A DNA stretch of 57,127 nucleotides. Origin: Planctomycetota bacterium. Lineage in GTDB: Bacteria > Planctomycetota > Phycisphaerae > Sedimentisphaerales > Anaerobacaceae. The translations under genes were made by a program, and so were the position numbers. Under the pieces are notes generated by a model, which made no database searches, had not been told where the DNA came from, and saw nothing but the letters and a program-made list of their open reading frames with translations. Numbering within the stretch: the first letter of the stretch is position 1; every line of letters begins with the position of its first letter. The stretch lies in contig JACNGQ010000233.1 in assembly GCA_014384025.1 (NCBI GenBank), forward strand, positions 1 to 57,127, given 5' to 3'. Positions 1 to 19,168 of this stretch are shown piece by piece.

Positions 1-1
1 A

Positions 2-2446: not shown

Positions 2447-2671
2447 ATGAGCCAGATTGCTAATGCTAAATCGGTCGCCGGTGAACCTAATATCCGTGGT
2501 GCTATAGCCTTCGATAACTGAGATACAGTCTGAGGGTAAGGATATTTGAAAGAATCAAATACCTTGGTATACCCAGTAAATATGATGTATCGTTCCATGG
2601 GAATGACGAATTCCTATCAAGAGGCAATTGAAGAAGGCTCTAATATGTTGAGGACAAAAGCAAAATGTTTT
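2447..2671 (+). pseudogene. Decayed gene remnant with a YggS-like C-terminal piece
   Basis: One reading frame from the ATG at 2447 gives protein-like sequence interrupted by TGA, TGA and TAA between about 2519 and 2533, then runs on to a TAA at 2669-2671. The last part, with MMYRSMGMTNSYQEAIEEGS, resembles the SMGMSxDYxxAIxxGAT segment near the end of YggS/PLPBP pyridoxal-phosphate proteins. The first part (VAGEPNIRGAIAFDN) I do not recognise. Three stops in about 15 bases rule out a working gene. The YggS link is a by-eye resemblance only. Confidence 0.4.
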
Positions 2672-3036: not shown

Positions 3037-3390
3037 CGATATCTTGTTTTGTTAAAATGGAATGTATCAAAATATAATAAATTGTTATAGCAATGAACTG
3101 TATATTTTGCTTAAGAAATTTTCAAGGTGGTATTAGTGGTTATTATGCTACCCCGTTTTTAAAGTTCACCCTTTGTGAGAGTATCTCGCACAGTGTCGTT
3201 CACATCAGACCCAAGGTAAGTCGAAATAGATACAGTTGGAAGTGTTGGAATATCGCGTCGATACAATCCTCTGGATAGGACATTTCACTTTGCTACGGAA
3301 TCGTCAAGGTTCCATCATTCTATAGAAAAGCTGGCCAGAGTATTCATTCAAATACCTTAGACCTGGCTACTGACTGGAAAAGGAATCTAC
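3037..3390. other. Gene-free, AT-rich spacer before the radical SAM gene
   Basis: About 350 bases without a convincing gene. Short open frames are present but have no family resemblance or start signals. TATAAT-like stretches lie around 3075, where a promoter could be, without a matching -35 box. No tRNA-like fold, direct repeat array or clear terminator was seen. Confidence 0.5.
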
Positions 3391-4341
3391 ATTATTGCTA
3401 CCCGAACTACCAATAGCAACAATCGAGAATACATATATGGCCCTGTTCCATCAAGGAGGCTGGGACGTTCACTCGGAGTTGATGTTGTGCCGTTCAAGAT
3501 ATGTACTTACGACTGCATCTACTGTCAGTTGGGAAGAACGACTAATAAGACTACTCAACGCAGTGAGTGGACCCCACCAAAAACCGTTATCAAACAACTC
3601 AAAAGCAAACTTTACACCAAGCCAGACTACATAACAATATCCGGCTCTGGTGAACCAACGCTTTTCTCGCGACTTGAGGATCTCATTTCCAGGATTAAAG
3701 ACATTACTGATATTCCCATAGCTGTGCTTACAAACGGTTCACTGTTATGGCTGCCGGAAGTAAGAAAGGCCTTGAAATCTGCGGATATGGTTGTTCCATC
3801 ACTCGATGCAGGAAGCAACCGGATATTTCAATATGTTAACAGACCTCATCAGGATATTACATTCAGCAAAATGCTTCAAGGTCTTGTGGAATTCCGTAAA
3901 GCTTATAGTGGTCAGTACTGGTTGGAAGTGTTCCTTCTGGCAGGTGTAACCACACCAGAGATGGAAATAAAAAGACTGAAGACATGTATAAATGCTATCC
4001 AACCCGATAAAGTTCAGGTAAATACTGTTACTCGTCCACCTGCCGAGGGTTTTGCGGAACCAGTACCGCAAAAGCAATTACAAACTATAACCAAGAAGCT
4101 GTACGAGAAGGCAGAAGTTATCGCTGACTACAGTAATGTTCATAAACAACAGGATTTTTCCGCTCTCTGTGAAGATGTTCTGACGCTTTTGAAACGTCGG
4201 CCATGTTCTGTTGAAGATATTGCCGCAGGTCTTGGCCTCCATCGAAACGAAGCTGTTAAGTACGTAGAGGAGTTGTCGTTTGTGGGCAGAATCGAAGCAA
4301 AACCGCATAATCAACAGCTTTACTATCAAGCCGTAATATAA
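3391..4341 (+). CDS. Radical SAM protein with C-terminal winged-helix domain, probable ATT start
   Basis: Cytosolic radical SAM enzyme of the COG0731-like group. The cluster motif CTYDCIYC (Cys38, Cys42, Cys45 counted from 3391) has a CxxxCxxC arrangement, followed by ISGSGEPTL in the barrel and a helix-turn-helix-like tail (VEDIAAGLGLHRNEAVKY, about residues 268-285). The conserved family start YGPVPSRRLGRSLGVD is encoded upstream of the first GTG (3487), so the protein must start earlier; between the in-frame stop at 3358-3360 and this block there is no ATG, GTG or TTG. An AAAGGA box at 3379-3384 sits 6 nt before an ATT at 3391, the best start. Substrate unknown. Either a rare start codon is used or the true start has been lost. 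Confidence 0.75.
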   Translation: MIATRTTNSNNREYIYGPVPSRRLGRSLGVDVVPFKICTYDCIYCQLGRTTNKTTQRSEWTPPKTVIKQLKSKLYTKPDYITISGSGEPTLFSRLEDLISRIKDITDIPIAVLTNGSLLWLPEVRKALKSADMVVPSLDAGSNRIFQYVNRPHQDITFSKMLQGLVEFRKAYSGQYWLEVFLLAGVTTPEMEIKRLKTCINAIQPDKVQVNTVTRPPAEGFAEPVPQKQLQTITKKLYEKAEVIADYSNVHKQQDFSALCEDVLTLLKRRPCSVEDIAAGLGLHRNEAVKYVEELSFVGRIEAKPHNQQLYYQAVI

Positions 4342-4382
4342 CGTTATGAACTTCCTTTTAAAGTTGACCAAAGGCCAGACCG

Positions 4383-4505
4383 ATGCCTAAGCAAATATTG
4401 AAAGAGTTAAGAGGCCACGCTCCTTTTACTTTTGCCGGAACAATTTTACAAAGTTCTGGTCTAATCCTGCATAGCATCTCGTTCCAATCATGCTCGCGTG
4501 GATAA
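4383..4505 (+). pseudogene. Duplicated 5' end of the 5459 membrane-protein gene
   Basis: From the ATG at 4383 the first 30 bases are identical to the first 30 of the gene at 5459, and another block of 15 (cacgctccttttact) matches after three differing bases. The encoded starts are MPKQILKELRGHAPFT and MPKQILKELRKHAPFT. Beyond that similarity fades, and this copy ends at a TAA after 40 codons. It is a broken paralogue or partial duplication, leaving the 4543 gene between the two copies. Confidence 0.65.
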
Positions 4506-4542
4506 ATAACAAACAGATATCGTTAATAAAGGAGAAATTGTC

Positions 4543-5202
4543 ATGAAGAACTTGGACAAAACAAGACTTTGCGCTATCGGATGTGATGGTATTAACGTGC
4601 TCGTGACTGCTCTGGTTGTGCTGATCTGGGTGGCTGCTGCTCCAGGGCAACGGGGGATGGGTGACGACAAGGGTATTTCGCAGCAAAGGCTGAAACCTCG
4701 TTTGGTCCTCATCTCAGGCAAGTTGCAGGAGATCAAGACTCATCCATGTGAGAACACTACCGGCAAAGCTGACCTTGGAACTCATCTGATTCTTAGGGAC
4801 AAGCAAGGCCGAGAACTCAACATCCATTTGGGACCAGCGCCGGAGCTGTCTGAGACTGTCAAGCAGCTTACTGTGGGCAGGAAACTCGATTTACTTGGAT
4901 TCCGCACCGACAAGATGCCCCCGAATCAATATGTCGCTCAAACACTGATTATTGGCAGTAATATAGTCCAGTTGCGTGACTCTGACCTCCGTCCTTACTG
5001 GGCCGGGAGCAGGCTTGGCCAGGAAACACTGTCGCCATCTACTATGACAACTGCAGATCAAAAAACGGTCAGGAGAGGGAGTTGTCTCTATTATGGTCCC
5101 AAATTGTGGCAGTCTCGCTGTTTTCAAGACGCGCCTAGGCCACGTTGGAGGCGATTCTGTCGTGGAAGGGCTTACTGCCGACGGTGGGAATGGGACAACT
5201 GA
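4543..5202 (+). CDS. Exported protein of unknown function, 3' end possibly degraded
   Basis: A 219-residue frame with a good AAAGGAG ribosome binding site (4520s) before the ATG. The N-terminus has a hydrophobic stretch at about residues 16-34 (GINVLVTALVVLIWVAAA), a signal peptide or anchor. The central part (about 57-150) reads as a beta-rich domain with HPCENTTGKADLGTHLIL and HLGPAPE and ends in LRDSDLRPYWAG, which looks like a natural protein end. After this the frame turns arginine- and tryptophan-rich (RRWRRFCRGRAY-like), as expected if the original stop was lost. Other frames between 5093 and 5410 are open but unrecognised, so the region down to 5458 seems decayed. No named function; it sits beside metal-transport remnants. 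Confidence 0.5.
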   Translation: MKNLDKTRLCAIGCDGINVLVTALVVLIWVAAAPGQRGMGDDKGISQQRLKPRLVLISGKLQEIKTHPCENTTGKADLGTHLILRDKQGRELNIHLGPAPELSETVKQLTVGRKLDLLGFRTDKMPPNQYVAQTLIIGSNIVQLRDSDLRPYWAGSRLGQETLSPSTMTTADQKTVRRGSCLYYGPKLWQSRCFQDAPRPRWRRFCRGRAYCRRWEWDN

Positions 5203-5458
5203 GAACTGTGACGACACCCGCCATGTCAACATCGGAAGATATGAGAAGAAGGACTCGCTTCATCTGGCCTGTGACGCCAAGTCTTTTGCGACTAGGTACC
5301 CAGTGCACAGCAGCTATAAATCAAATAATGTAGAGCGACTCTTCTGCGCCAAAAGTGAAATCCAAACGGAGCTCAAGAATTGCCGACCTTATTATATAAT
5401 GAAGCCGTGACACGATATCGGAGATACTCGCTCGGAACGCAATTGAGCACAAAAACCC

Positions 5459-6070
5459 ATGCCTAAGCAAATATTGAAAGAGTTAAGAAAACACGCTCCT
5501 TTTACTCTTTTTGGGGCAATTACAGGAATAATCGTTATGTATCTTTCCCAGACATTGTCCCCTAAAGCTTCATATTCTATTTTCTATACACTTCATCCAA
5601 TTCATGTTCTGCTAAGTGCGCTTGTGACGGCTTCTATGTACAAAATCAACAAATGCGGACACATAAAAGGTAAGTGTAACCTTTGGATTTTACTAATGAT
5701 TGGCTATATAGGTTCTATCGGTATCGCAACAACAAGCGATTCATTAATCCCTTATTTAGGTGAGGTTTTGCTCGAGATGCCTAACAGAGGTCTCCATATA
5801 GGCTTTATCGAAAAATGGTGGTTAGTGAATCCCTTAGCAATAGCAGGTATTGTAATAGCATATTTTTGGCCCAAAACAAAATTTCCACATGCCGGACATG
5901 TTTTATTAAGTACGTGGACATCACTGTTTCATATTATCATGGCTAAAGGAGAAGCCTTGGGTGTGCTTTCCTACATTACTATCTTTTTGTTTCTTTTCCT
6001 CGCTGTGTGGATACCTTGTTGTGTAAGCGATATCGTGTTTCCGCTTTTGTTTGTAAAAGAATCGAATTAG
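5459..6070 (+). CDS. Polytopic membrane protein of unknown function
   Basis: A 203-residue inner-membrane protein with about six hydrophobic segments: residues 13-31, 44-60, 73-92, 121-139, 147-163 and 172-200. A histidine-containing loop (TLHPIHVLL) lies near the second segment, and WIPCCVSD lies in the last. The N-terminus is duplicated at 4383. No clear Shine-Dalgarno sequence precedes the ATG. The nearby tail of a zinc/manganese ABC permease (7384-7755) makes a metal-transport partner conceivable, but no known transporter family is recognised. Confidence 0.6.
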   Translation: MPKQILKELRKHAPFTLFGAITGIIVMYLSQTLSPKASYSIFYTLHPIHVLLSALVTASMYKINKCGHIKGKCNLWILLMIGYIGSIGIATTSDSLIPYLGEVLLEMPNRGLHIGFIEKWWLVNPLAIAGIVIAYFWPKTKFPHAGHVLLSTWTSLFHIIMAKGEALGVLSYITIFLFLFLAVWIPCCVSDIVFPLLFVKESN

Positions 6071-6252
6071 TACTCAATGCGAATTGATATTGTGGGTCCT
6101 GAAGGAGAGATTAACCTTGAGGATACTCGCAAGAAGGCTGTTGAACTTTTTAATTCAGCTGGAATTGTGCTGAGTCTGTATTCATAGCTATCAACGACAT
6201 TTTTACCTGCTCGGATATGGGACTACGGATTGGAATCTGAAAGGAACTTGAC

Positions 6253-6786
6253 ATGAACATTTCAAGACGTGCAGTGCTTTTTAACAGCCTTATCATGGCT
6301 GGCTGTAGTACAACATGCGCATTTGGCAATGACTCGGTGAAACCAAATACCATGAAAAGTGAGAATACCAGCAGTCTCTTCGAACTGTACCCGGTCGGCA
6401 GGATAGAAAGAAAAGGCAAGTCTGTGAGCTTGCATATTTTTAAGAAGTACAAAGATGCTCTTAAAGGGTTGGACGGCTTTTCACACGTTTTCGTGCTATA
6501 TTGGTTTGATAGAAACGATACACATGAAAAAAGAAGTATCCTTCAGGTTCATCCACGTGGCAATAAAAAAAATCCTCTAACCGGTGTTTTCGCCTGCCGC
6601 GCGCCTGTTCGGCCAAACCTTATTGCCCTGAGCTTATGCAAGATTATTTCAGTGAAAAAAAATATAGTGTATATTGAAAACATCGACGCCCTTAACAACA
6701 GTCCAATTCTTGATCTCAAACCATATATTCCCCACATAGACCACATCATCAAAGATGTTCGCGTACCTGATTGGCTAAAGGAGTAA
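6253..6786 (+). CDS. Exported TrmO/UPF0066-fold protein
   Basis: Residues from about 46 (YPVGRIERKG) to the end match TrmO, the SAM-dependent enzyme that methylates t6A37 in tRNA: LDGFSHVFVLYWFDR, VHPRGNKKNPLTGVFACRAPVRPNLIALS and PYIPHIDHI are close to the family pattern (given here as separate short blocks). What is odd is the front: SRRAVLFNSLIMAGCSTTC, a twin-arginine pair, a hydrophobic core and a lipobox-like LIMAGC. Cytosolic TrmO has no leader. The ATG at 6253 has an AAAGGAA box just upstream. If exported, it could not see tRNA or cytosolic SAM, so it may do something else, for example bind a metabolite. It is followed 63 bases on by the scaffold protein gene. Confidence 0.7.
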   Translation: MNISRRAVLFNSLIMAGCSTTCAFGNDSVKPNTMKSENTSSLFELYPVGRIERKGKSVSLHIFKKYKDALKGLDGFSHVFVLYWFDRNDTHEKRSILQVHPRGNKKNPLTGVFACRAPVRPNLIALSLCKIISVKKNIVYIENIDALNNSPILDLKPYIPHIDHIIKDVRVPDWLKE

Positions 6787-6849
6787 AGTTTTACTCAGTT
6801 TGGTCTTACAAATAATTAAATACGTAGAAAGAAATAGGGGCAAAGACAA

Positions 6850-7275
6850 ATGACAGAAAAGCATGACAAAATTGCGCAGGATCTCCAGGAAGCTATATTG
6901 GAGGGCTATTCGGAGAAGTTTAAAAAAGAGTTTTTGAGACCTGAAAACATTGGGAAGATAAAAGATTCAGACAGCTATGTCAGCATTACGGGTGTCTGTG
7001 GAGATACTCTCGATATATATTTAGTCGTCAGGGAAGGAAAGATAAGCGATATCAGGTTTATGACTGATGGTTGTGGTGCCTCAATTACATGCGCCAGCTA
7101 TGTCACAAGAACAGCAAAGGGAAAATCCTTAGAAGAAGCACTCCGGATTAAACCGGAAGATGTTAACAAATATTTTGAAGGTCTCCCCGAAGATCACAAA
7201 CATTGTGCTAAGCTGGCTGTAATTACACTTGCAGCTGCGATAGAAAAATATCAAGGTAAATCGAATAACAAATGA
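6850..7275 (+). CDS. NifU/IscU-like iron-sulfur cluster scaffold protein
   Basis: A 141-residue cytosolic protein of the IscU/NifU N-terminal family, which assembles Fe-S clusters for transfer to target proteins. The three cluster-binding cysteines are in place: Cys50 in GVCGDTLDIYL (with the partner Asp52), Cys75 in DGCGASITCAS and Cys119 in DHKHCAKLAV. The segment KGKSLEEALRIKPEDV is also typical. The LPPVK chaperone-recognition motif of housekeeping IscU is not present, which is common in anaerobe variants. No cysteine desulfurase is next to it. A GGGG box lies near 6837 before the ATG. Confidence 0.85.
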   Translation: MTEKHDKIAQDLQEAILEGYSEKFKKEFLRPENIGKIKDSDSYVSITGVCGDTLDIYLVVREGKISDIRFMTDGCGASITCASYVTRTAKGKSLEEALRIKPEDVNKYFEGLPEDHKHCAKLAVITLAAAIEKYQGKSNNK

Positions 7276-7383: not shown

Positions 7384-7755
7384 ACCTCGAATGGTTATCG
7401 TCAAGCTCTTAATAAACGTATTGAGATAATATTTTGGGATTTTATTTTTTATTTGCTGCTTGGTATTGTAATAACGTTATCCGTTCAAATTGGCGGCGTT
7501 GTCGTGGTGTTTGCCTATCTCATAATACCTGCCACAATATCGGTGATTATTTCTTCGCGCTTAGTCGTGCAGTTGATAATCATATGGGCTGCAGCAACAG
7601 TGGCGTCAATAACAGGCCTGCTATTTTCGTATTATCTTGATTTTTCAATTGGACCTTCTATTGCATTGTTTCTCGGAGGTGAACTGATACTCGTCGCAAT
7701 TATTGCACAATTTTGCGGAGAAATAGGTTTACCGGAAGGGGAACCTCAGTTGTAA
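7384..7755 (+). pseudogene. C-terminal fragment of an ABC-3 (ZnuB/TroC) metal permease
   Basis: An open frame directly after a TGA at 7381 carries GYRQALNKRIEIIFWDFIFY, then hydrophobic segments with VQIGGVVVVFAYLIIPAT, the conserved late part of ABC-3 permeases for zinc, manganese or iron. Only about 120 of the usual 260-280 residues remain and there is no plausible start or ribosome site; no ATPase or binding protein is near. It is a 5'-truncated relic of a metal uptake operon. Confidence 0.7.
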
Positions 7756-7885: not shown

Positions 7886-9127
7886 ATGAGTGAAATTGGA
7901 CATTTAATTAGGACATTGGCGCTCTTACTAACGATGTCTATTACACCGGTGGCGGCGGTGGGTGAGACCGACGAATGGCCAGGCTGGCGGGGACTACATC
8001 GGGATGGGAAATCCCCTGATCGGGGCCTATTGAAAGCGTGGTCGGACGAGGGACCCGAGCTGCTGTGGAAAGAGGATGGGATTGGTAAAGGATTTTCCAG
8101 CGTAGCCGTTAGCGGGGGGCTGATCTACATTACCGGTGATATAGACAAACGATTGGTGCTGTTCGCCTTTGATCTCAATGGCAACCCCCAATGGAAGACC
8201 GACATTGATGCGGCATGGACCAGAAACCATCCCGGCTCGCGGTCAACACCGGTGATAGACAACGGAAACCTGTACCTTGTCTCTGGCCACGGACTGGTCG
8301 GCTGCTACGAAGCCAAGACCGGCAGGGAGAACTGGACCAGGCAGATGCGCGAGTTCGGCGGCGGCGTGCCGAATTGGGGCTATGCTGAGTCGGTGCTGAT
8401 CTATGACGATTTGGCTGTGGTTACGCCCGGCGGGGAAAACTGCATCGTCGCATTGGACAAGACCACCGGCAAGACCATATGGATCAGCCGAGGATTCAAG
8501 GCTGAAGCGCAGTATAGTTCTTGCTACCTGTTCACGTACCAAGGAGTGCCCATGATCGTCAACGGCACCCAGGGGGGCATCGTCTGTGTCGACCCTAAGG
8601 ATGGTCGCGTGCTCTGGTCCAATCCCTTCAGTGCCCGCAACACCGCCAATTGTCCCACACCAGCTTTCTCCGACGGATACGTGTTTTGGGCTAACGGATA
8701 CCGTAAGGGCGGTATCTGCTTCAAGCTCACCATCAACCGCGGCCAAGTTACTGCCGAGGAGGCCTGGAGAACAGGGGACATGGACTGCCATCACGGGGGC
8801 TACGTCCTGCACGATGGGTATATCTATGGCAATCACAGCAGGGGCTGGGTTTGCCTGGATCTCAAGACTGGCGAAAAGATGTGGCAAGAAAGGGGAGTTA
8901 GCAAAGGCTCTGTCTGCTTCGCCGACGGGATGCTGTACCTGTTTGGCGAGAGGGATGGGGCTGCGGGCCTGGCCACCTGCTCGCCTCAAGGCATGGAGAT
9001 GAAGGGCAACTTCAGCGTTCAGGGCGACGGCCCCAGTTGGGCTTATCCCGTGGTGACTGCCGGACGACTGTATCTGAGATATGACAATAACCTTTACTGC
9101 TTCGACGTGAAGGCGAAAGAGTTGTGA
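7886..9127 (+). CDS. Exported PQQ-type beta-propeller protein
   Basis: A 413-residue protein with a signal peptide (hydrophobic LIRTLALLLTMSITPVAAVG, cleavage near residue 25) and an AAAGGAG box 7 nt before the ATG. The mature part starts EWPGWRGLHRDGKS, the usual opening of exported planctomycete PQQ-like propellers, and then repeats blade patterns such as VALDKTTGKTIW, VDPKDGRVLW, LDLKTGEKMW. These fold into a seven- or eight-bladed propeller; most such proteins bind substrates or partners and have no PQQ enzyme activity. The gene is clearly richer in G and C than both neighbours, which hints at a separate origin. No partner gene is evident; the next gene has its own promoter. Confidence 0.8.
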   Translation: MSEIGHLIRTLALLLTMSITPVAAVGETDEWPGWRGLHRDGKSPDRGLLKAWSDEGPELLWKEDGIGKGFSSVAVSGGLIYITGDIDKRLVLFAFDLNGNPQWKTDIDAAWTRNHPGSRSTPVIDNGNLYLVSGHGLVGCYEAKTGRENWTRQMREFGGGVPNWGYAESVLIYDDLAVVTPGGENCIVALDKTTGKTIWISRGFKAEAQYSSCYLFTYQGVPMIVNGTQGGIVCVDPKDGRVLWSNPFSARNTANCPTPAFSDGYVFWANGYRKGGICFKLTINRGQVTAEEAWRTGDMDCHHGGYVLHDGYIYGNHSRGWVCLDLKTGEKMWQERGVSKGSVCFADGMLYLFGERDGAAGLATCSPQGMEMKGNFSVQGDGPSWAYPVVTAGRLYLRYDNNLYCFDVKAKEL

Positions 9128-9496: not shown

Positions 9497-11104
9497 ATGA
9501 AATTCCGAAAAGTCCCTAACCATAGCTTAGTGATGGCAGTATTTGTGTTTGCGATATGGCAAATGTCGCCTCACTTCATTACTTCGGTATCTGCTGACGA
9601 AAACAGAGCAGCAGGGCCATTCGCATCTCTGGACTCTATCGACAATAGCCCCAGGGTGGTCTCCGGGGAGTCTAACACATTGCACTCAGCTAAACCAAAT
9701 GATCGAGCGGGATCTGTCCGAGCCATAGTCTCACACCTTGACTTGGGCGAAGGGGCGGTTATTGCCGACATCGGGGCAGGTAGAGGCCGGGATACGTGGG
9801 TCTTTGCGAAGATTGTCGGAGAAACAGGATTGGTATTTGCGGAGGAAATCGTAGAAAGCAATGTGGAATCTTTAAAGACGGAGGCTCAGAAAAGAGACTT
9901 TAGTCAGGTTCGCGCAGTGCTTGGCCGCACAGATGATCCTTGTTTACCCTCGAATTCCGTTGATCTTGTCTATATGAATCACGTTTATCACCATCTTGCA
10001 AAACCACGAGAGATGTTACGAGGGATCTGGCGCTCACTGAGACCGGGCGGCCATCTTGTAGTGGTTGATCGACAACTCGGGACGTTACGTGACTGGGTTC
10101 CCCGGGAGCTACGTGAAAAGAAACATTTCTGGATTGCCGAAACAACGGTGGTCAGAGAGGCAAGAGAAGAGGGATTTGCTTTCATGGGCTGTGCCGAACA
10201 GTACTGGCATACAAAAGACAACTTTGTTCTCATATTTCAACGTCCCAAAGAACTGAAATATCCGAGCAGTGATCCAGATCCTTTTCTTTCTATTTCGGTA
10301 GAAAAGTATTCCCATCTATTCCTTCCACTTGCTTGTCCTTATAAGAATCCTGTTATAGTAGCACTGGGACAGGCACGCGAAGTGATAGTTCCAATCCTTG
10401 AAAACTCTTCCAGCGAAGGGCTGGATATTATTTTAGAGGAGTGGGCTACACAAAAAGAAGAGAGACAGTCGCTTCCCTCTGATATTCATCTTCCTTCGAT
10501 CCTTACAGAAAACGGCGATCCCAATCTGTCAACTGAGTCGATCGATGTAGTTTTCTTTATAGACAGCTATCACCTGCTTTTCCATGGAAAAACTATGCTT
10601 GCTAAGATTTATGAAAAGCTTTCACCAGTCGGTTGCATATATGTTCTTGATCGTAGAGCTCAGGAACTTTTGTCCCGGCGTGAGGCAAGCCATCACAGAA
10701 AGATACAGCCGAAGACCGTAAAACGAGAGATGACTGAAGCAGGCTTCTTCCTGTGGTTTCAGGGCCCACGACCGGCTCGCGACCGCTTTCTTCTTGTCTT
10801 TGGCAAGAACCAACCTGAAAAGATTCTACCTGAAGATGATCCTTTTATCGGTGGGCCGGTGATTCCCCAAGCTCCAGGTCAATGGCTCAAAAGGAACTAC
10901 TGGCGCCTTCGGGGACTTAAGGTAGATGATGGAAGATTTGTCCATTTCAGGACACCTGGGAAGAAAGGATCTGTTGAGAAAGTCCCAAGTAGTTCATCAA
11001 GTAAAGAAATGTGGAAAATCCCGAAAGAGAAACTTATGCTATACTTCGAGAAAAAGGGCGAAAAATATTTGCTAACCGATTATCAATCCTTGGACCGACG
11101 ATAG
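9497..11104 (+). CDS. Exported protein with a methyltransferase domain and a second degenerate copy
   Basis: The ATG at 9497 is chosen because GGAGG lies 6 nt upstream and the protein then begins with a signal peptide (residues 1-33, ending SVSA). The 535-residue product has a class I SAM methyltransferase domain at about 70-250: DIGAGRGRD (91-99) is the SAM loop, SVDLVYMNHVYHHL and LRPGGHLVVVDR are later core motifs. A second domain (about 290-440) has the same late pattern (ESIDVVFFIDSYH, SPVGCIYVLDR) but no glycine-rich SAM loop, so it looks like a degenerate duplicate. The tail past 450 is unrecognised. Exported COG4798-type methyltransferases exist, but no periplasmic SAM source is known, so its true ligand is uncertain. 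Confidence 0.7.
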   Translation: MKFRKVPNHSLVMAVFVFAIWQMSPHFITSVSADENRAAGPFASLDSIDNSPRVVSGESNTLHSAKPNDRAGSVRAIVSHLDLGEGAVIADIGAGRGRDTWVFAKIVGETGLVFAEEIVESNVESLKTEAQKRDFSQVRAVLGRTDDPCLPSNSVDLVYMNHVYHHLAKPREMLRGIWRSLRPGGHLVVVDRQLGTLRDWVPRELREKKHFWIAETTVVREAREEGFAFMGCAEQYWHTKDNFVLIFQRPKELKYPSSDPDPFLSISVEKYSHLFLPLACPYKNPVIVALGQAREVIVPILENSSSEGLDIILEEWATQKEERQSLPSDIHLPSILTENGDPNLSTESIDVVFFIDSYHLLFHGKTMLAKIYEKLSPVGCIYVLDRRAQELLSRREASHHRKIQPKTVKREMTEAGFFLWFQGPRPARDRFLLVFGKNQPEKILPEDDPFIGGPVIPQAPGQWLKRNYWRLRGLKVDDGRFVHFRTPGKKGSVEKVPSSSSSKEMWKIPKEKLMLYFEKKGEKYLLTDYQSLDRR

Positions 11105-11312
11105 CTACCATTGTTTCTGAAACACCAATTTGCATTGTTTGATTATTAACCTTGTTAAAAACAAAAGGAATATTTGATTGGAACTTAGTTATTTCCTTGA
11201 GTATAGGAGCTTTACTTGGAGTCTTGAGGTCGTAGCCAATTCCATCGGCTCCTGTTCTCTCGGACTCGGCTAATGAAAGCAATTGTTGTGCCGTAGTAAT
11301 TCTTGAAGATAG
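11105..11312 (-). pseudogene. Possible unidentified gene remnant on the minus strand
   Basis: Reading right to left from 11312, the frame gives protein-like sequence: an alpha-helical start (TTAQQLLSLAESERTGADG), then YDLKTPSKAPILKEI and MQIGVSETMVAIVGPRID. It has no start codon signal (a TGA lies just upstream at 11313-11315) and then runs into the end of the methyltransferase gene. It reads like a piece of a globular protein, but I cannot name the family. It may be chance. Confidence 0.25.
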
Positions 11313-11394
11313 TCAAATTTTGTGCTTTTGCCTAAGAGTCTTTATCTCTAGTCGAGGTGAAGTGGAAAGGTAATCTTATTGTTATATACGACTG

Positions 11395-11407
11395 ATACTC
11401 AGAGTAT
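11395..11407. promoter_or_regulatory. 13-bp palindrome upstream of the second methyltransferase gene
   Basis: ATACTC-A-GAGTAT has perfect 6-base arms around a single base. It lies 38-50 bases before the ATG at 11445, in the zone expected for a promoter or operator (TATATT follows at 11405). A dimeric regulator could bind here; no regulator gene is in the window. Confidence 0.25.
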
Positions 11408-11444
11408 ATTGATTATACCAAAGTTTTAAGAGGAGATTAGATTG

Positions 11445-12215
11445 ATGATGGAACTGTTAAAGCGATTTTACTTGCTTGCTCTGATACTGTTCTTTTGTGG
11501 AGCGGGATGCTTCAACGGCAAACCTATGTCTTCACCATCGGACGAGAAATATACCAAGCAAAATGCACTTGGTATGATAAGAACAATTCGTAAGACACTT
11601 GCGCCTGTCTATGCTCCTTTGGCTGAGCAGATTGTTTCAGATTTCGACTTGAGCGAACAAGATGGTATCGGGATTGACTTAGGAAGCGGTCCGGGCACAC
11701 TAATTATTGAATTGTGCAAGTGCAGCCGACTTCATTGGGTTAATGCAGACATCAATCCAAATTATTTTTCAAATTTTTACCGGCGAGTGGAAGAAAATGG
11801 TGTAGGACATCAGGTGAGTGCCATCTTCGCCGATGCCCACAATCTCCCTTTTCGAGATAATTTTGCAGATATCATTGTTTCCAGAGGTTCATATCATTTC
11901 TGGGAGGATAAGGTACAAGCCTTCAGTGAGATATATCGTGTGCTTAAACCAGGAGCGGTGGCTTATATTGAACGAGGCTTTTCGAGAAATCTGCCTGTTG
12001 AAACGGCAAAAAAGATACGCGCAAAACAGGGCAAAAAATTGCAATATGATGTGGATAAAAAAGCCCATGAACTGTCAAACATTATGAATGTCCTGGGAAT
12101 CAAGGACTATCGCATTGACAGGCCGAAACCGCCTGGTAGTGAAAATGTTAACTATGGGATTTGGGTTGAATTCCGAAAAACTGAAGCAAACGTTTCCAAA
12201 GAAGAGGGAAAATAA
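11445..12215 (+). CDS. Membrane-anchored or lipoprotein class I methyltransferase
   Basis: A 256-residue protein. After a short hydrophobic leader (FYLLALILFFCGAGC, possible lipobox with Gly at -3) comes a class I SAM methyltransferase fold: the glycine loop GIDLGSGPGTL at about residues 76-86, NADINPNYF (ribose-binding acidic residue), FADAHNLPF and the later VLKPGAVAYIERG. An AGAGGAG box lies 7-10 nt before the ATG at 11445 (an in-frame TTG at 11442 and ATG at 11448 are alternatives). The glycine loop looks intact, unlike the second domain of the protein upstream. Only 6 bases separate it from the pseudopilin gene, suggesting an operon. A methyltransferase outside the cytoplasm is unusual. 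Confidence 0.7.
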   Translation: MMELLKRFYLLALILFFCGAGCFNGKPMSSPSDEKYTKQNALGMIRTIRKTLAPVYAPLAEQIVSDFDLSEQDGIGIDLGSGPGTLIIELCKCSRLHWVNADINPNYFSNFYRRVEENGVGHQVSAIFADAHNLPFRDNFADIIVSRGSYHFWEDKVQAFSEIYRVLKPGAVAYIERGFSRNLPVETAKKIRAKQGKKLQYDVDKKAHELSNIMNVLGIKDYRIDRPKPPGSENVNYGIWVEFRKTEANVSKEEGK

Positions 12216-12221
12216 CGTAGA

Positions 12222-12974
12222 ATGCTAAATCAAATCTTTTCAAAAACAGGTTTTACCTTAATCGAGCTATTAGTGGTCATTGCTGTTATAGCTCTATTGT
12301 TGGGGATACTCATACCTGCTATGCACAAGGTGCGATTTAGAGCCCATGAAACAACATGTCTGAGTAACCTTCGTCAGGTTAATATTGCTCTGATAATGTA
12401 CGCCAATGATGACAGAAATAATCGATATCCACTGGAGGCAACCGAACATAATCCTCATCGCAATTTGCTGCAGAAGCTCAATGCCTATAAAAACGGCAGC
12501 CTGTTTGAAGCTTTCTATTGTCCACAAGCCAAATTATTGGAGCAGATCGCGAACGATCCAAACGGTGGTGTACCTACCGGGGGTATGGATTCTGTGATTG
12601 ATACACCTTATAACCGTCAAATCGGTAATATTACTTATATTTACTGGAGTTTCCACGCCAACAAACAGGAGTTAGATGGAAGTACCTGGCGTGATCCCAC
12701 TTTATTCCTGCCGCGACAATTGACTTTGCATGGCATGGAGGCTCATCGTAATTGGCTTGGCCAGACGAGCAAGACCGGCATCCAGGATGAGCGATATCGC
12801 CAGTGCAGTAATGCGAGACCCGCAGAGATTTGGGTAGTATGCGACTTCTTCCGTAAGCAAGGCATCTTCCCGCATGGCCGCAAACCGGGACAAACAGAAG
12901 GTGGTGTTAATGTTAATTTCCTTGACGGTCATGTCGGCCGAGTTAATAAAAGTCCAAAGGACAGCTATCGCTAA
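12222..12974 (+). CDS. Type II pseudopilin-like protein of the planctomycete H-X9-DG type
   Basis: A 250-residue protein with a short basic leader, then the prepilin cleavage and methylation site GFTLIELLVVIAVIALLLG: cleavage is after Gly and the new N-terminal Phe is methylated, with Glu at +5. The long hydrophobic helix follows, then a globular domain with CLSNLRQVNIALIMYANDD. The end VNVNFLDGHVGRV is the FxDGHV tail common in planctomycete exported pseudopilin-like proteins. These are numerous per genome and probably serve in cell-envelope or secretion complexes; a direct role is unknown. It follows the methyltransferase gene by 6 bases. Family members are 230-350 residues, so length is normal. 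Confidence 0.85.
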   Translation: MLNQIFSKTGFTLIELLVVIAVIALLLGILIPAMHKVRFRAHETTCLSNLRQVNIALIMYANDDRNNRYPLEATEHNPHRNLLQKLNAYKNGSLFEAFYCPQAKLLEQIANDPNGGVPTGGMDSVIDTPYNRQIGNITYIYWSFHANKQELDGSTWRDPTLFLPRQLTLHGMEAHRNWLGQTSKTGIQDERYRQCSNARPAEIWVVCDFFRKQGIFPHGRKPGQTEGGVNVNFLDGHVGRVNKSPKDSYR

Positions 12975-13304: not shown

Positions 13305-16300
13305 TTACTGAGGGAAAGTTTCACCGCTTTCCAAACGTGCCGCAACGAAAGCTGCCATGTTTGCGTTATCGCTGCCAGTTATGCCTGAGCCGTATTTTTC
13401 TATTACATAGGCAACAGAATCACCAACTGGTGAGCCTATATCGTTATTTAGAACAGCAATATATTGAACAAAAGCATCAATGTATTCTATTGCTGTGGCA
13501 TACTGGGTTCCATCATTGATGCGTCCGGCGAAAGCTGTAACAATCGATGAGGCCACTTCCGGGGTGAACGGAGCGCTAGCAGGTGCCAGCTCGTTAAATA
13601 CCTGATTCATTGCAGCCATGCCTGAACCGTTCTCGTCAGCCAAGATTACCGCAGCGTCAAGGAGCCTTGCGCAGCTTTCACACGGCTGAATATCGGTGTT
13701 AAGCGCGTAGGAATTTGCCAGGGACACTTCGATGGTTTCTTCCGGAATTCCAAGCTCTGCAGAGACTGCTGCAATCAGAATAGGACAACCATCTAAGCCC
13801 AAAATTTGCTTTTGAGCCTGTTCACCTGCTTCTCTATCAAGAGGCGCATTATCCGGATCCACAAGAACCCAGGCTCTACCGTCTGTGATAGCAGGATTGT
13901 CAAGGCCGGCCCCGCGGAGCACATATGTGTAACCGGGCGGGAAAGGCCCCACGCCATTATACGGATAAGACGAATAGGGCAGGCGGCCTTCAGCCTGGAA
14001 CAGCCATTCGGTTATGCGAGAGACAACCTCCAGCCTGTCACCAACGTCTCCATTTGTAAGAGAGTCTTCAAATGCGCCTCCTACAATTCCAGATTCATCG
14101 AAGGTGACAGTATCATAGGCGTCGATAACCATTGCTCCTTCAGATACAATAACAGGCAACTCCTCTTCTATTATAGAAGAGGAAATGCTGACTGCCGAAC
14201 TGACATCGATGTCTCCATCAGTACTTGCAAGATAGATTGCCGCATCGAATGGACCACCTTCATACCTCGGGAAACCACTTGGTATTTCAGTTCGGACATC
14301 CAATAAATTGAGACCTTCACGGTCATCAACATCGCCGGTTGTGTCGTACGTTCCAGAAGCTGTAAGTGTGGTATTCTCACCTAACATCAGGTCTTCGGCA
14401 CCCATAATCACAATTGCCGCTTTACCGGGTCCATAAGGCAGGTCAACACCTATATCCAGTTCGTCATCGGAAGTGCCGGTTATGGCAACATTATCGAGGA
14501 TAGCGTAGTCTGGGTCTGGGTTTGCTGTACGGACTGTGTGGTTATCCGATATTATTGATACTCCGCCTTCAGAAGATTCCACAATACCGCCAAACGGATG
14601 GCTTATCTGCTCAAAACCGGGATGAGTACCAATCTTAATATCTTCATCAGCGTCTGAACCCTGAAGCACAATGTTATTGACGGCTAATGCCTGTATGGAT
14701 TGCCACTGATCAGCCGCATTATCATCATTTCCGCCGTTAGCCGTATCAACTGTTGTAAATCCACCATCTGTGATTTCAACCATAAGATCAGTGTTTGCCT
14801 GATTAGCAAATGTAAAGCCTGCCAAATCCAAATCGTTCTGTTGTACCAATGTCAAGGTACTGCTGCCGGCTTCGATTGTAGTACCACTACCAACATGAGT
14901 CATTCCTCCCAGAGTTGCCTCCAGATATATGCTGCCGGAGGTAGCGATTATGTCGTATAAATCCACATCATCTGTTTCAACTATCACAATATCACCAGAA
15001 CCGCTGGATTGAGCATCAAGGCCATTAACCGTAGTCTCAATAGCACCGAGAGTATCTATCGTCTTAGCTATCGGACTACCGCCTATTTCATCAACGGCAG
15101 TAAGAGTTAACATATCAGCTGCAACATCCACATCTGTGTCGTCCGAAGAGTCGTTGATAGAACCGGCTGAATCAACATCTACCTCATCATCAAGAGCAGT
15201 TACTGATCCAAGCATTATATCGCCGCTGGTCGTTGTAGTTAATTGAACATCACCTGCACCACCAGCTATCACTTCCACTGCAGTGAGATCTGCTTCGGTT
15301 ACATCTATCGCAATACTACCATCGGTTGTTGTTTCTGCGTATGTCACAGTCAGGTTACCGTCTCCGTCCTGACTAAACAGGATGTTTCCTGTACCTGTGG
15401 TCAAAGATGTTACGAGGACATCTGAAGCATGGGTGTTGTCAATATCGATATCGCCATCTGTCGTATCTGCCGCTATCAAAGTCGCCGCAGTCTCGATGGG
15501 TGAGAGGCCGTATATGCCGGATACCGCGTCCAAATCCAGCTCATCAGCCGTAAGGTCGGAATCAGCGTCATCGTCATATTCCTCGATGGAACCGGCCGAG
15601 TCAATCGTTATAGTATTGCCGAGAGCCTCGACATCATCCACAAAAACGTCACCAGCCGTAGTGGTAAGCCAAACATCAGAGTCGCCGCCGGCTTCAACTG
15701 AAATAGCCGTAAGGTCCCCTCCATCAGCAACCTCTATATCTATATAGCCGTCGCCCGTGGTGGCCAGGTCAACCTGTAAACTGCCGCCGCCGTGCTGGTA
15801 GAAATCAATATCGCCTGCATCTGTGGTTAACGATGTCGCAGTTGTGTCTTCAGTATTTTCATTGGAAATGTCTATATTGCCATCTGTCGTATCTGCCGCT
15901 ATCAAAGTCGCCGCAGTCTCGATGGGTGAGAGGCCGTATATGCCGGATACCGCGTCCAAATCCAGCTCATCAGCCGTAAGGTCGGAATCAGCGTCATCGT
16001 CATATTCCTCGATGGAACCGGCCGAGTCAATCGTTATAGTGTTGCCTACAGCCCTGACATCCGTTACCACTACATCACCGGAGGTAGTCGTCAGGCTAAC
16101 GTCACCTGCTCCACCGGCCTCAACCCGGCCACGGAGGCTTATGTCGCGGTCCGCTTCAAGAGTCAACATCCCATCACTGTCCATAGTCTTGTCAACTGCC
16201 AAAATTATGTCCCGGCCGGCTTCCATCCCTATCTCACCTGCTTGAATATTATCATTGAGGACGATATCCCTATTTGCTACGGCTGATAAGCTGTCAACGC

Positions 16301-17129
16301 CTGAGATAGCAGTGGAATAGATATCACCGGCAGCAAGAACTACTTTTCCTACGTTTCCGCTTGATGCTTCAAATGAACCGGTGTTATCAACGGTGTGCTG
16401 GGCCGGGTTAGTCATATTAACCTGAACAACGATATTGCTGCCAACCTCACTAAGTAACACAGTTTCGCCGGCGGCCATTACAACAGCTCCGCCCGGCGCT
16501 GTTGTTCTTATAGTACCTTTATTAGTAACATTTTGACCAATAAGAGCTATATTTTCTGCATTGATTCCATTTGTCACACCCTCATTTGTCACATCACCAA
16601 TAACGTTGCTGTAAGGGTGTCCAACTGCCGGAAAGCTCTCAAATTGATAAATGCCACTCATAAAGTTGTTATTTTGGATATCGATACCTGAGGCAACGAA
16701 GTTTCGGGCCTGGATGTAAGAGTCAGGCCCGAAGATGACGCCACGAGTGTTAACAATGAAGATCTCGCCCTGATTACCATAAAGGGAACCGTTAAATAGC
16801 GTTTCACCTCCCGCAATTACTCTGTTCAAGACAGCAAAATTCCCACTCGCTAGGAAATGAAGCTCCTCGGTTGACAGGGTATTCAGACTATCCCAGTTGA
16901 TAACTGCGCGGACGTCGGCATTCATATGCACATTGGTAACGTTAGGAGCCACGCTGTATGTTATGGTGCCTCCAACGGGAGCCACCTGCACTGGATTAGT
17001 GGGTGTGGCCAGTACAACCTGTGCCGGAACTGCTAAAAGGATACAGTACACCAGCAGGCAAGCTACAATTTGCCTCGAATAATAAGTTTTTGACATTTTC
17101 CTAAGCTTTCCCATCATTTTTTTCCTCAT
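13305..17129 (-). CDS. Two-partner secretion exoprotein (TpsA, filamentous haemagglutinin-like)
   Basis: Secreted beta-helix protein of up to 1274 residues exported by the TpsB next door. It has a signal peptide ending near AQVVLA (about residue 41), then the TPS secretion domain with INWDSLN, FLASGNFAVLNRV and FIVNTRGVIFG (residues 70-140). A long repeat-rich middle (about 300-700) of acidic beta-strand repeats follows, including two copies of EEYDDDADSDLTADELDLDA from an exact DNA duplication. The C-terminal part (about 1090-1274) is a different, helical domain with a CESC pair (QPCESCARLLDAA). ATG at 17129 or the one at 17117, which has AGGA before it, could be the start. Acidic composition suggests calcium binding; adhesion or surface function is inferred from the family. 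Confidence 0.85.
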   Translation of the reverse strand: MRKKMMGKLRKMSKTYYSRQIVACLLVYCILLAVPAQVVLATPTNPVQVAPVGGTITYSVAPNVTNVHMNADVRAVINWDSLNTLSTEELHFLASGNFAVLNRVIAGGETLFNGSLYGNQGEIFIVNTRGVIFGPDSYIQARNFVASGIDIQNNNFMSGIYQFESFPAVGHPYSNVIGDVTNEGVTNGINAENIALIGQNVTNKGTIRTTAPGGAVVMAAGETVLLSEVGSNIVVQVNMTNPAQHTVDNTGSFEASSGNVGKVVLAAGDIYSTAISGVDSLSAVANRDIVLNDNIQAGEIGMEAGRDIILAVDKTMDSDGMLTLEADRDISLRGRVEAGGAGDVSLTTTSGDVVVTDVRAVGNTITIDSAGSIEEYDDDADSDLTADELDLDAVSGIYGLSPIETAATLIAADTTDGNIDISNENTEDTTATSLTTDAGDIDFYQHGGGSLQVDLATTGDGYIDIEVADGGDLTAISVEAGGDSDVWLTTTAGDVFVDDVEALGNTITIDSAGSIEEYDDDADSDLTADELDLDAVSGIYGLSPIETAATLIAADTTDGDIDIDNTHASDVLVTSLTTGTGNILFSQDGDGNLTVTYAETTTDGSIAIDVTEADLTAVEVIAGGAGDVQLTTTTSGDIMLGSVTALDDEVDVDSAGSINDSSDDTDVDVAADMLTLTAVDEIGGSPIAKTIDTLGAIETTVNGLDAQSSGSGDIVIVETDDVDLYDIIATSGSIYLEATLGGMTHVGSGTTIEAGSSTLTLVQQNDLDLAGFTFANQANTDLMVEITDGGFTTVDTANGGNDDNAADQWQSIQALAVNNIVLQGSDADEDIKIGTHPGFEQISHPFGGIVESSEGGVSIISDNHTVRTANPDPDYAILDNVAITGTSDDELDIGVDLPYGPGKAAIVIMGAEDLMLGENTTLTASGTYDTTGDVDDREGLNLLDVRTEIPSGFPRYEGGPFDAAIYLASTDGDIDVSSAVSISSSIIEEELPVIVSEGAMVIDAYDTVTFDESGIVGGAFEDSLTNGDVGDRLEVVSRITEWLFQAEGRLPYSSYPYNGVGPFPPGYTYVLRGAGLDNPAITDGRAWVLVDPDNAPLDREAGEQAQKQILGLDGCPILIAAVSAELGIPEETIEVSLANSYALNTDIQPCESCARLLDAAVILADENGSGMAAMNQVFNELAPASAPFTPEVASSIVTAFAGRINDGTQYATAIEYIDAFVQYIAVLNNDIGSPVGDSVAYVIEKYGSGITGSDNANMAAFVAARLESGETFPQ
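15453..15614 (-). repeat. 162-bp repeat copy A inside tpsA
   Basis: As far as I can read by eye, this block is identical to 15879-16040. The copies start 426 bases (142 codons) apart and encode the same segment with EEYDDDADSD and DAVSGIYGLSPIETAATL. The surrounding parts of the 142-residue unit are similar but diverged. Confidence 0.85.
15879..16040 (-). repeat. 162-bp repeat copy B inside tpsA
   Basis: Second copy of the block at 15453-15614, in the same orientation and reading frame. The absence of silent changes points to a recent duplication or gene conversion. Confidence 0.85.
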
Positions 17130-17209: not shown

Positions 17210-19102
17210 TTACCATCTCAACATCACGCCGGCACTCACACGCCCTTTACCTGTTCGTGTATTGTCGGTTGACTTGAGGGGATAGCCGTAATAGACAGCA
17301 CCACTGAAATTGTCCCCAAGCTCTATAAGTGCTCCTGCGCCTACAGAAAAGAAATCTTCATCTGCTCGTTCTGTTCCAACAGGGTGTCTTATCTTGGCTC
17401 TTCCATAGTCAACAAAAACCAAAGGAGCAAGTTTTCTCAGGAATGGCTTGCTTTGTTTGTCCCCGGTATCATCAAGGAATTTAGACTCCTCATATTTCAC
17501 AAGGTCAAACTCATATTGCCCGGATGCAAACATTCCGCCATCAGCAACAAGTTCATATTCGTCGTAGCCTCTGATACTGTACATTCCGCCGAAGGCGGTC
17601 ATTTTTGCGGGGACCAGTCTTTCGTCCGATGTTGTCCAGCTAAAAGAGCCGCTAACGCGCTGAATCTTATTCGTATCGAGATACTGGTTGTGAGCAGCAG
17701 AAGCAGTATAAATGGCAAAATCGGATTCAGAATTTACTCGTGCCAGACGAAACTCATCGCCACCGGATTCACCTCCCATGCTTTCATAACGGCCGAGTGT
17801 GATAGAGCTTTCCGACAAATCGTCTGAGCGGTGCAAGTCAATCCCGCCCCCCCACAGCCAAAACTTTATGTCCGTTCCCAAAAAGGTCGGGAACAATGAA
17901 GGTGTAACCTTGCTTCTTGTATGCTCAAGAGAGCCTTTGATATCAAAGAACCAACCATCTTCAGTCTGGAGCAGGTTGTAACGCAGTATTCCGCCATAAA
18001 ATGTACCTCTGCCAAGAAAGTCAATCGGACCAGAGGAAGAGCTTATGTCAAACTCACTGTGACCTCCATAAAGGTTAAGACGCAGCCGAGGTCCTAACAG
18101 CGGAAAATCGTAACTGCCGAATAATCCGTAATTCTCGTCCACCGTTGAATCCCATGGCGCCTGGTATATGACCGTTAATGTGTCGTCTATACCTAAAAAG
18201 TTTGTATTGACGAGGCCGACTCTTGGGTCCCATTGCCTTGGTCTTGTGCCAGAGTTATCCGCCTGAATGAACCAATGCCAGGGATTTGCCTCGTAAATAT
18301 TATATCCCAGAGAAATAGAGTTTGGTTCGGTTCCCTTCGATACGACCCCACTAACATACCTGTCAGGATTCAGGTTGAGCAAGTTAATAAAATCATTCAT
18401 TTCTTTCTGATTTGTCACCTCTCCGAGTTTTACAGGCGACCAGCCAATCACCGCTGAGCTGCAGAGATAACCCTTTTCAATTATCTCATTTTCAGGAGTG
18501 TAATAAGTAGTTGTAATTGCACTGACGGGTGCCTCAATGACTTTTAAAAGCAAAATTTCATCCTGCAATTCTCGTCCTTCCCTCATTGTATTTGCGGGAA
18601 CATAAACATATATGCCGGCATAATTCTTATCCTGATAAACCGAGAGAAGATATTGAGTAAAACCCTGTATAGTCCTTGTTGAAACCTGTCGAGCCTGTCC
18701 GGGTTCCAAAATGATATCATGCAGTGCTCTGAAATCGTAAAGATTGTCACTTTCAGCCATCTTTAATGTCTCGGTGGAAGCGTTGTAAATCAGAGGCATG
18801 TCAGCCAACAATTCATCGGTTGTTAAAAGGGTGTTGCCGCTGATACGAATTTCCTTTACACTTATGCGCTGTGTTGTGTCTTCCGGCAAGTCAATTTCCG
18901 AGATTTCTTCCTGGAGCTTTGCTTTAGCTTTTTCAATAGCCTCTCGTCTGGTCTTAACAGAAGCATCTTTCTTTTTTTGGATTTGTTCAGCTTCTGTTGA
19001 ACTCACAACATTCCCGGCCATCGTGTCCCAAATGGGAACACACAAGATAATACATAAGAATATACAGCGTACTAAACTTGCCATTGTTGTCGTGCTATTC
19101 AT
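17210..19102 (-). CDS. Two-partner secretion outer-membrane transporter (TpsB/FhaC-like)
   Basis: Outer-membrane barrel that exports the TpsA encoded 80 bases downstream. The start at 19102 is chosen because AAGGAG lies 8 nt before it and a signal peptide follows (to about MAGN, residue 30). Then come a charged coiled coil (about 37-70, QKKKDASVKTRREAIEKAK), POTRA domains with VKEIRISGNTLLTTDELL and VIEAPVSAI (about 80-205), and a beta-barrel. SIRGYDEYEL at about residue 506 is the VRGY motif 6 that reaches into the pore, and the chain ends in an aromatic residue (VMLRW), as outer-membrane proteins do. At 630 residues it is of family length. It is transcribed first of the pair. Confidence 0.9.
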   Translation of the reverse strand: MNSTTTMASLVRCIFLCIILCVPIWDTMAGNVVSSTEAEQIQKKKDASVKTRREAIEKAKAKLQEEISEIDLPEDTTQRISVKEIRISGNTLLTTDELLADMPLIYNASTETLKMAESDNLYDFRALHDIILEPGQARQVSTRTIQGFTQYLLSVYQDKNYAGIYVYVPANTMREGRELQDEILLLKVIEAPVSAITTTYYTPENEIIEKGYLCSSAVIGWSPVKLGEVTNQKEMNDFINLLNLNPDRYVSGVVSKGTEPNSISLGYNIYEANPWHWFIQADNSGTRPRQWDPRVGLVNTNFLGIDDTLTVIYQAPWDSTVDENYGLFGSYDFPLLGPRLRLNLYGGHSEFDISSSSGPIDFLGRGTFYGGILRYNLLQTEDGWFFDIKGSLEHTRSKVTPSLFPTFLGTDIKFWLWGGGIDLHRSDDLSESSITLGRYESMGGESGGDEFRLARVNSESDFAIYTASAAHNQYLDTNKIQRVSGSFSWTTSDERLVPAKMTAFGGMYSIRGYDEYELVADGGMFASGQYEFDLVKYEESKFLDDTGDKQSKPFLRKLAPLVFVDYGRAKIRHPVGTERADEDFFSVGAGALIELGDNFSGAVYYGYPLKSTDNTRTGKGRVSAGVMLRW

Positions 19103-19168
19103 AATTTTTCTCCTTGAAATACACAAGTTAGATTGGAAGGCCCGATTCTAAATAAAAACCACGGCAAG

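Follow-up and report, generated by a model that had tools for sequence, protein, structure and literature searches.

Methyltransferase-fold proteins with export-type leaders in a planctomycete and their putative role at the cell envelope

Three co-oriented genes lie side by side on the plus strand of contig JACNGQ010000233.1 of a Planctomycetota bacterium (assembly GCA_014384025.1), a stretch of 57,127 nucleotides that we analysed as a whole and refer to as the window. Two of them, termed P1 and P2, code for methyltransferase-fold proteins with export-type leaders, and the third codes for a pseudopilin; ribosome-binding sites and leaders are visible in the sequence. We propose that P1 and P2 represent families of extracytoplasmic class I methyltransferases, and that P2 might be a periplasmic methyltransferase that would bind S-adenosylmethionine (SAM) at an envelope module with lineage-specific partners. 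In our judgement this reading stands at about an even chance. Its basis in sequence and gene context is fourfold: export-type leaders, the periplasmic placement of P2 relatives through receptor fusions, an intact SAM signature and recurrent neighbours. From these we infer SAM as the ligand, catalysis, a substrate, lipid anchoring and physical contact between the partners. The genome searched comprises 6.7 Mb on 448 contigs, among which the window is contig C326; labels with C, L and G are our handles for contigs, loci and genomes.

Leaders and receptor fusions of the P2 family

The P2 family comprises 47 loci, which were obtained by scanning named genomes with an alignment of six sequences as the query. 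According to the record titles, these loci belong to Planctomycetota (Sedimentisphaerales, Phycisphaerae), Sumerlaeota, Aminicenantes, Poribacteria, Hydrogenedentota, Victivallales, Latescibacterota, Glassbacteria, Omnitrophota, Verrucomicrobia, Kiritimatiellae and Acidobacteria. The genome of the window harbours a second copy on contig C141 (L008), which is 81% identical to P2 and is followed by a pilin gene. Upstream of this copy lies a gene for an exported-looking propeller protein of the pyrroloquinoline quinone (PQQ) type with a degenerate methyltransferase domain. The copy had been flagged for one TAG inside the match, but a pseudogene was rejected, since the match merely runs past the normal stop codon.

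The start codon of P2 is an ATG preceded by AGGAG, and the leader reads MMELLKRFYLLALILFFCGAGC. A hydrophobic export-type segment is found in all 46 family proteins with an N-terminus, i.e., those of 44 of the 47 loci, the window and L008. Forty of the leaders were recognized by script, with a best 12-residue hydropathy of 1.79–3.31, and four by eye (L119, L128, L130, L139); the starts of L128 and L130 were chosen by hand, as no ATG is near. L138, L140 and L142 were excluded, because their contigs begin past the leader. The distant relatives L022 and L181 carry no leader. As to export of P2 by twin-arginine translocation (Tat), a single loose twin-arginine-like match occurs among the 46 proteins (L110). 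A preliminary description of this DNA had called both proteins exported-looking, which holds for P1 with its Sec-type leader and for P2 with a leader kept throughout the family, as judged by heuristic and eye.

In four loci (L129, L131, L137, L142) the P2 domain and a TonB-dependent receptor form one fusion protein. In L131 from Glassbacteria a single frame of 912 codons encodes a leader, a Methyltransf_11 domain and a TonB plug (Pfam), followed by a barrel (by eye). The fusions of L137 and L129 from Latescibacterota show the same order, the latter running off its contig, and the domains of L142 from Acidobacteria are also arranged as in L131, but the start is cut off. The stretch between the signal and the plug of TonB receptors is periplasmic, and therefore, the P2 domain lies outside the cytoplasm in the fusion loci. 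We hold an extracytoplasmic location to be nearly certain for the P2 family and very likely for P1 and P2 of the window.

The preliminary description had also considered leaders that serve as mere anchors of inward-facing proteins. The N-terminal segments would then be uncleaved, and the anchored domains would be exposed to the cytoplasm and its SAM. The leaders are indeed short with few positive charges, and the lipobox of the window P2 is weak; yet the receptor fusions, which place the domain between leader and plug, contradict this arrangement for the P2 family, and PQQ-type propeller proteins carry the same kind of leader. We consider inward anchoring very improbable, and for the other exported methyltransferase domains of the genome, which include several with PQQ-type propellers attached, it appears unlikely as well.

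In addition to the fusions, a separate gene for a related receptor adjoins P2 in L111 (Planctomycetota), L133 (Verrucomicrobia) and L141 (Kiritimatiellae; receptor start only, at the contig end). A profile of the four fused receptors revealed no further receptor in the available flanks of 49 loci. Among the NCBIfam models the receptor is nearest to siderophore receptors, well below the cut-off. TonB receptors with N-terminal periplasmic extensions are comparable: in L129, L131 and L137 the P2 domain likewise sits between the leader and the plug. The known extensions are signalling domains, however, which unlike the P2 fusions do not adopt a methyltransferase fold. We found no paper on a fusion of a methyltransferase and a TonB receptor in the open-licence literature that we searched.

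The pocket signature and the ligand

Pfam places a Methyltransf_11 domain in residues 78–174 of P2 (E 9e-17), including the glycine loop DLGSGPG. The alignment of 43 P2 sequences, which omits six of the 47 loci (L128, L130, L138, L139, L140 and L142, owing to a contig-end cut, the lack of a nearby ATG or a miss of the motif script), contains 25 invariant columns. D78, G80, G82 and G84 of the glycine loop, D102 at the end of strand 2 and D130 after strand 3 are identical in all 43 sequences. From established knowledge of the fold, we take the position of D102 to be the ribose-binding acid and D130 to mark the adenine side.

The preliminary description had proposed to predict the structure of the SAM pocket, and an AlphaFold model of P2 (mean pLDDT 91.8, pTM 0.85) bears out the fold. 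Among solved structures, the closest to the model is 3DLC (Z 27.6, root-mean-square deviation 2.5 over 207 residues, 32% identity), which also ranks top with the P2 sequence profile (E 4e-44). All 1000 chains preselected by Foldseek score a Z of at least 8 against the model, in agreement with a class I methyltransferase fold. 3DLC is MMP1179 of Methanococcus maripaludis, titled a putative SAM-dependent methyltransferase, and shares the motifs DxGSGPG, SRGS and FWED with P2. It aligns from residue 3 and has no leader, whereas export leaders are a feature of the P2 family; after strand 5 the family reads GRGF, compared to GGGF in 3DLC. A lower-ranking fold match to the P2 model is 3OCJ (Foldseek E 1.4e-10, TM 0.53), a “possible exported protein” of Bordetella parapertussis. 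The two proteins are only 13% identical and their likeness in export rests on the entry title, which provides an earlier hint of the same oddity.

Neither P1 nor P2 is a methyltransferase named by NCBIfam. Their best-ranked matches reach 57.5 bits (P1) and 39.1 bits (P2) against a cut-off of 510 bits, and both proteins fall outside the UbiE, ArsM and BioC equivalogs. UbiE/MenG, BioC, ArsM and DVU_1556 are the best but weak matches, all of those shown lying far under the curated cut-offs.

An intact SAM-type pocket signature is present in P2 and, in the loop and the acid after strand 2, in the first domain of P1. Judging from these residues, SAM is the likely ligand of both, and the invariance of the canonical SAM-contact residues in the 43 aligned P2 sequences favours it over another ligand. 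Alternatively, the exported domains may keep the fold and serve another ligand, or they may only bind a ligand imported through the envelope, as its sensor, carrier or chaperone, with no methyl transfer outside. SAM is not expected in the periplasm, domains with a lost SAM loop occur beside P2 and inside P1, and the TonB fusions as well as nearby ModA-type binding proteins would suit a binding role. On the other hand, the loop, the ribose acid and the adenine Asp are invariant in the 43 sequences from eleven groups, and a repurposed pocket need not keep them. We regard this alternative as somewhat unlikely. The earlier suggestion that the fold serves a ligand other than SAM is not favoured for P2 and the first domain of P1, where the signature is intact; the loop is absent from the second domain of P1.

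Neighbours of P2, P1 and other exported folds

The features of the window that bear on P1 and P2 are compiled in Table 1. Coordinates, frames and features of the three genes agree with the preliminary description, which had listed a signal peptide, an intact and a degenerate domain, DLGSGPG and a 6-base gap.

Table 1. Genes of the window discussed in the text
Feature	Position	Strand	Properties and basis
TrmO-family protein, Tat-type leader (SRRAVLF)	6253..6786	+	Pfam, NCBIfam
NifU-like scaffold	6850..7275	+	Pfam; a relative also adjoins the P1 orthologue of G134 (L175)
PQQ-type beta-propeller protein, exported-looking start	7886..9127	+	Upstream of P1; Pfam
P1	9497..11104	+	Signal 1–33; intact domain ~65–250; degenerate second domain ~270–440; extra C-terminal module ~445–535
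P2	11445..12215	+	Methyltransferase-fold; export-type, lipoprotein-like leader with weak lipobox GAGC; Pfam, alignment, model
Pseudopilin	12222..12974	+	N_methyl motif; YPLEATEHNPH subfamily; co-oriented, 6 bases past the P2 stop

A pilin gene follows P2 directly on the same strand in 14 of the 46 loci for which 450 or more bases downstream are available. The script found 13 of these; the fourteenth is L100, where the pilin gene and the P2 frame overlap. A pilin gene on the opposite strand lies close by in L117 and L121. All named P2-pilin loci are planctomycetes, and many of the adjacent pilins share one subfamily (YPLE[AP]TEHNPH). In the P2 loci of other phyla no pilin occurs within 400 bases downstream. 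The P2-pilin occurrences are not independent events, because the loci share ancestry. Chance was rejected as an account of the P2-pilin adjacency in view of this recurrence, and the leader is no chance feature either, as P2 homologues keep it; for the adjacency of P1 and P2, which recurs once, chance is retained.

The pseudopilin of the window passes the models for the prepilin N-terminal cleavage and methylation motif, Pfam PF07963 (26.2 vs. a cut-off of 21.2 bits) and TIGR02532 (27 vs. 16.3 bits). P2 might be a dedicated modifier of this neighbour or of a pilus, as the tight recurrent pair, often with one pilin subfamily, would suggest. Yet the pair was seen only in planctomycetes, the genome contains 117 pilin-type matches compared to two close P2 copies, and the methylation of prepilins by the prepilin peptidase is cytoplasmic; such a role appears quite improbable. 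The 117 matches are to TIGR02532 (150 of 153 candidates scored), and hence, pilins are very common in this genome. Large paralogous sets are also known from bacteria of the Planctomycetes-Verrucomicrobia-Chlamydiae group: a paper on Verruconatronum gives 67 pseudopilin homologues, and the methyltransferases named there serve glycine betaine (PMC13274419). Here, one pilin subfamily recurs beside P2.

Upstream of P2, a gene for a PQQ-type propeller protein is found directly adjacent in 10 loci (9 of the 44 with 1500 upstream bases by script, and L101), three of the ten genes being partial (L099, L101, L106). ModA-type binding proteins are present in the planctomycete P2 loci L099, L102, L104, L109, L110 and L127, and an ATP-binding cassette (ABC) permease in L102, L104, L109 and L110. 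Against molybdate/tungstate models, the binding protein of L104 scores just above the modA cut-off, and the binding protein of L127, the permease of L109 and the ATPase of L110 score below. The window P2 has neither a PQQ nor an ABC partner, its upstream slot being filled by P1 there and in L098. One pathway for the entire P2 family was sought and not found, as neighbours differ by phylum. Two envelope-type families near P2 (L102:13426-14775, L109:1422-2666), with the sequences CRYNVRE and CSTPVFRYALERW, match neither Pfam nor NCBIfam; in some loci they also occur near FtsX-type ABC permeases.

P1 belongs to a different family. Its ATG is preceded by GGAGG, and its leader, MKFRKVPNHSLVMAVFVFAIWQMSPHFITSVSA/DE, was judged by eye to be of the Sec type. 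Residues 91–189 match Methyltransf_11 of Pfam (E 6e-17), and the second domain (~270–440) has no Pfam match at E 0.01. The second domain lacks the glycine loop, ALGQARE aligning where the type of the first domain has DIGAGRG. In the first domain of the P1 family, D91, G93, G95 and G97 are invariant in 28 rows, and an acid follows strand 2 in every row. The model of P1 (mean pLDDT 71.8, pTM 0.53) is good for the first domain, the best solved match of which is 3DH0 (Z 22.2, root-mean-square deviation 3.1, 171 residues); ArsM (4FR0) follows with a Z of 18.6. The fold-search list was filled by one domain, and the matches speak for the first domain; the second shows predicted elements in a similar order at lower model confidence.

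Orthologues of P1 are found in L098 (94% identical, start cut by the contig), G122 (66%), G134 (63%) and G282 (50%), and in pieces with stops in G213. Single-domain relatives are more widespread: 50 of 298 class genomes, including this genome and the orthologues, have a match at 1e-15. All 29 P1-relative loci that were fetched, from 55 places outside this genome, show a leader by eye. The P1 orthologue of G282 ends a run of genes for Mrp, NifX-like, thioesterase, metallo-β-lactamase (MBL)-fold, FTR-like and TrmO proteins, with a radical SAM and a MinD-like gene beside the run, and the contig stops 38 bases past it. In G134 the orthologue comes after NifU-like and MBL-fold genes, and in G122 after a sigma-factor and a zinc-finger gene (names by eye throughout). 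Upstream of P1 in the window lie genes for an MBL fold at 292 (by eye), a radical SAM protein at 3487, TrmO at 6253 and NifU at 6850. This set (1–7275) is reminiscent of the genes (Mrp, NifX, MBL, TrmO) next to the P1 orthologue of G282 (L176).

Outside the window, P1 was seen to adjoin P2 only in L098, a near relative (P1 94%, P2 87% identical). P1, P2 and the pilin could form one functional unit, given the same strand and order in both. However, L098 is a near relative, in G122 and G134 genes other than P2 come after the P1 orthologue, and the contig of G282 ends too early to tell. Moreover, ten loci have a PQQ-type gene in the position upstream of P2, and 340 bases separate P1 from P2. We consider a single unit unlikely. 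Since P1 and P2 belong to different families with different neighbours, they are not to be treated as a pair, and the earlier idea of an enzyme pair is not supported. The search for the three genes together, which the preliminary description had put forward, found the P2-pilin pair in 14 of 46 loci and the triad once more (L098). That description would have been given up if the leaders were no signals or the genes never occurred together; leaders are present, the P2-pilin pair recurs and so, once, does the triad.

Exported-looking SAM-type folds are not confined to P1 and P2. In this genome 14 of the 43 Methyltransf_11 places lie in exported-looking proteins, 28 fall below a hydropathy of 1.9 and one (C180:8602) is a false call that lies within the domain and was left out of the 14. 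P1, whose start lies beyond the scanned part, was added by hand. The hydropathy measures for the family and for this genome cover slightly different stretches. Besides P1 and P2, there are eight long exported-looking frames (C128, C141, C197, C220, C239, C277, C367, C446) in which a methyltransferase-type domain is combined with PQQ-type repeats. A profile confirms the propeller for C367 and for L102, a relative of the C141 type; for the remainder it is assigned by eye. The loop reads HxGCGxG on C239, C251, C367, C395 and C446, HINCGDG on C220 and DLGCGxG on C197 and C277; with the glycine-loop pattern used, none was found on C128 or C141. Of 199 phylum genomes, 25 contain relatives of one such N-terminal domain. 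In this genome the family, a large paralogous one, corresponds to L008, L009, L010, L083, L084, L090, L091 and L097, and some members bear a C-terminal GCxC-type cysteine motif (by eye). Compared to the PQQ/BamB-type propeller proteins of planctomycetes, several of those found here are joined to a methyltransferase domain, and P1 and P2 carry no propeller.

The TrmO-family protein is the only TrmO_N match of the genome (119.4 bits vs. an NCBIfam cut-off of 93.25) and a further SAM-enzyme fold with an export-type leader in the window. In comparison to TrmO/TsaA, it matches the profile from position 31 on and has an added Tat-type leader. Among its relatives L071, L073, L075, L076 and L078, four have a Tat-type leader and the fifth has a lipobox. 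Export-type leaders occur in at least six of the 30 TrmO loci fetched (32 places), the script having taken a wrong-strand frame for several others. Another cytosolic enzyme type that looks exported is a DegT-type aminotransferase, encoded close to sulfatases, whose leader is Tat-like (L008:13922-15313, by eye).

Further observations concern the surroundings in the window. On the minus strand (13305–17129 and 17210–19126), a repeat protein of 1274 residues, the start of which is like that of secreted proteins of the filamentous-haemagglutinin type, adjoins a likely two-partner outer-membrane transporter (by eye). The start of a membrane protein gene at 5459 (5459–5520) is near-identically repeated about 1.1 kb upstream (4382–4440), like a partial duplication. 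A C-terminal fragment of an ABC-3 (zinc/manganese-type) permease lies at 7453–7755, the remainder of the gene being absent from the adjoining listed frames.

A putative envelope module

In the mechanism that we propose, P2 would be a periplasmic, probably membrane-tethered, SAM-binding methyltransferase at an envelope module. Its partner in several phyla would be a TonB-dependent outer-membrane receptor, either fused or adjacent. In planctomycetes, the partners would be a pseudopilin, a PQQ-propeller protein whose methyltransferase domain is dead and, in some cases, an ABC importer of the molybdate/tungstate type. P2 may bind a ligand that is imported or exposed at the envelope and transfer a methyl group to it, provided that SAM is present in the periplasm. 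P1 would be a different exported methyltransferase, which has a degenerate second domain of its own and is tied to a gene set of the metal-cluster type (MBL fold, NifU/NifX/Mrp, TrmO). The receptor fusions argue for ligand uptake as the role of a P2 module, and the pilin and the propeller argue for a planctomycete-specific surface. Methyl transfer outside the cytoplasm is possible, with perhaps an even chance or less.

Several points weigh against the proposal. To our knowledge, neither a SAM transporter nor a periplasmic SAM pool has been described for these bacteria, and no SAM transporter was recognized among the named recurrent neighbours, where no search was aimed at one. Secreted bacterial methyltransferases that act in host cells, where SAM occurs, are known, and therefore, export alone is no proof of SAM use outside cells. 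The secreted methyltransferases of pathogens such as Mycobacterium tuberculosis likewise leave the bacterium, but they act in host cells, whereas P2 is tied to bacterial envelope proteins. In the literature searched, secreted methyltransferases are mentioned in papers with titles on clubroot, M. tuberculosis and host chromatin, among others (PMC13295639 and PMC8929471 being two of the papers). The full copies of the PQQ-propeller proteins read upstream of P2 have lost the SAM loop in their methyltransferase domain; since the second domain of P1 has lost it as well, some exported copies need no SAM. As the neighbours of P2 are lineage-specific, they imply no single pathway. The leaders were judged by a hydropathy heuristic and by eye, and a strict lipobox ([LVI][ASTVIGLM][GAS]C within residues 11–45) is found in nine of the 46 family members, the window P2 having GAGC instead. 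Finally, the P2 family is patchy (six of 198 class genomes; three of 294 phylum genomes, including this one), and all 47 loci are, by their titles, metagenome-assembled. In the open-licence literature that we searched, we found no description of exported proteins of the P1 or P2 type.

A broader reading, which we put forward tentatively and at less than even odds, is that many phyla methylate in the periplasm with SAM, and that P2-type enzymes under TonB receptors, or fused to them, modify a ligand during import. If true, such methylation would require a supply of SAM outside the cytoplasm, of which we know no description. In bacteria, reactions with SAM are commonly assumed to take place in the cytoplasm. 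An exported family with an intact SAM signature and with receptor fusions in several phyla makes this assumption testable on one small soluble protein. Furthermore, the P2 family provides a handle on unexplained envelope gene sets of planctomycetes, which combine PQQ-type propellers, pseudopilins and methyltransferase folds.

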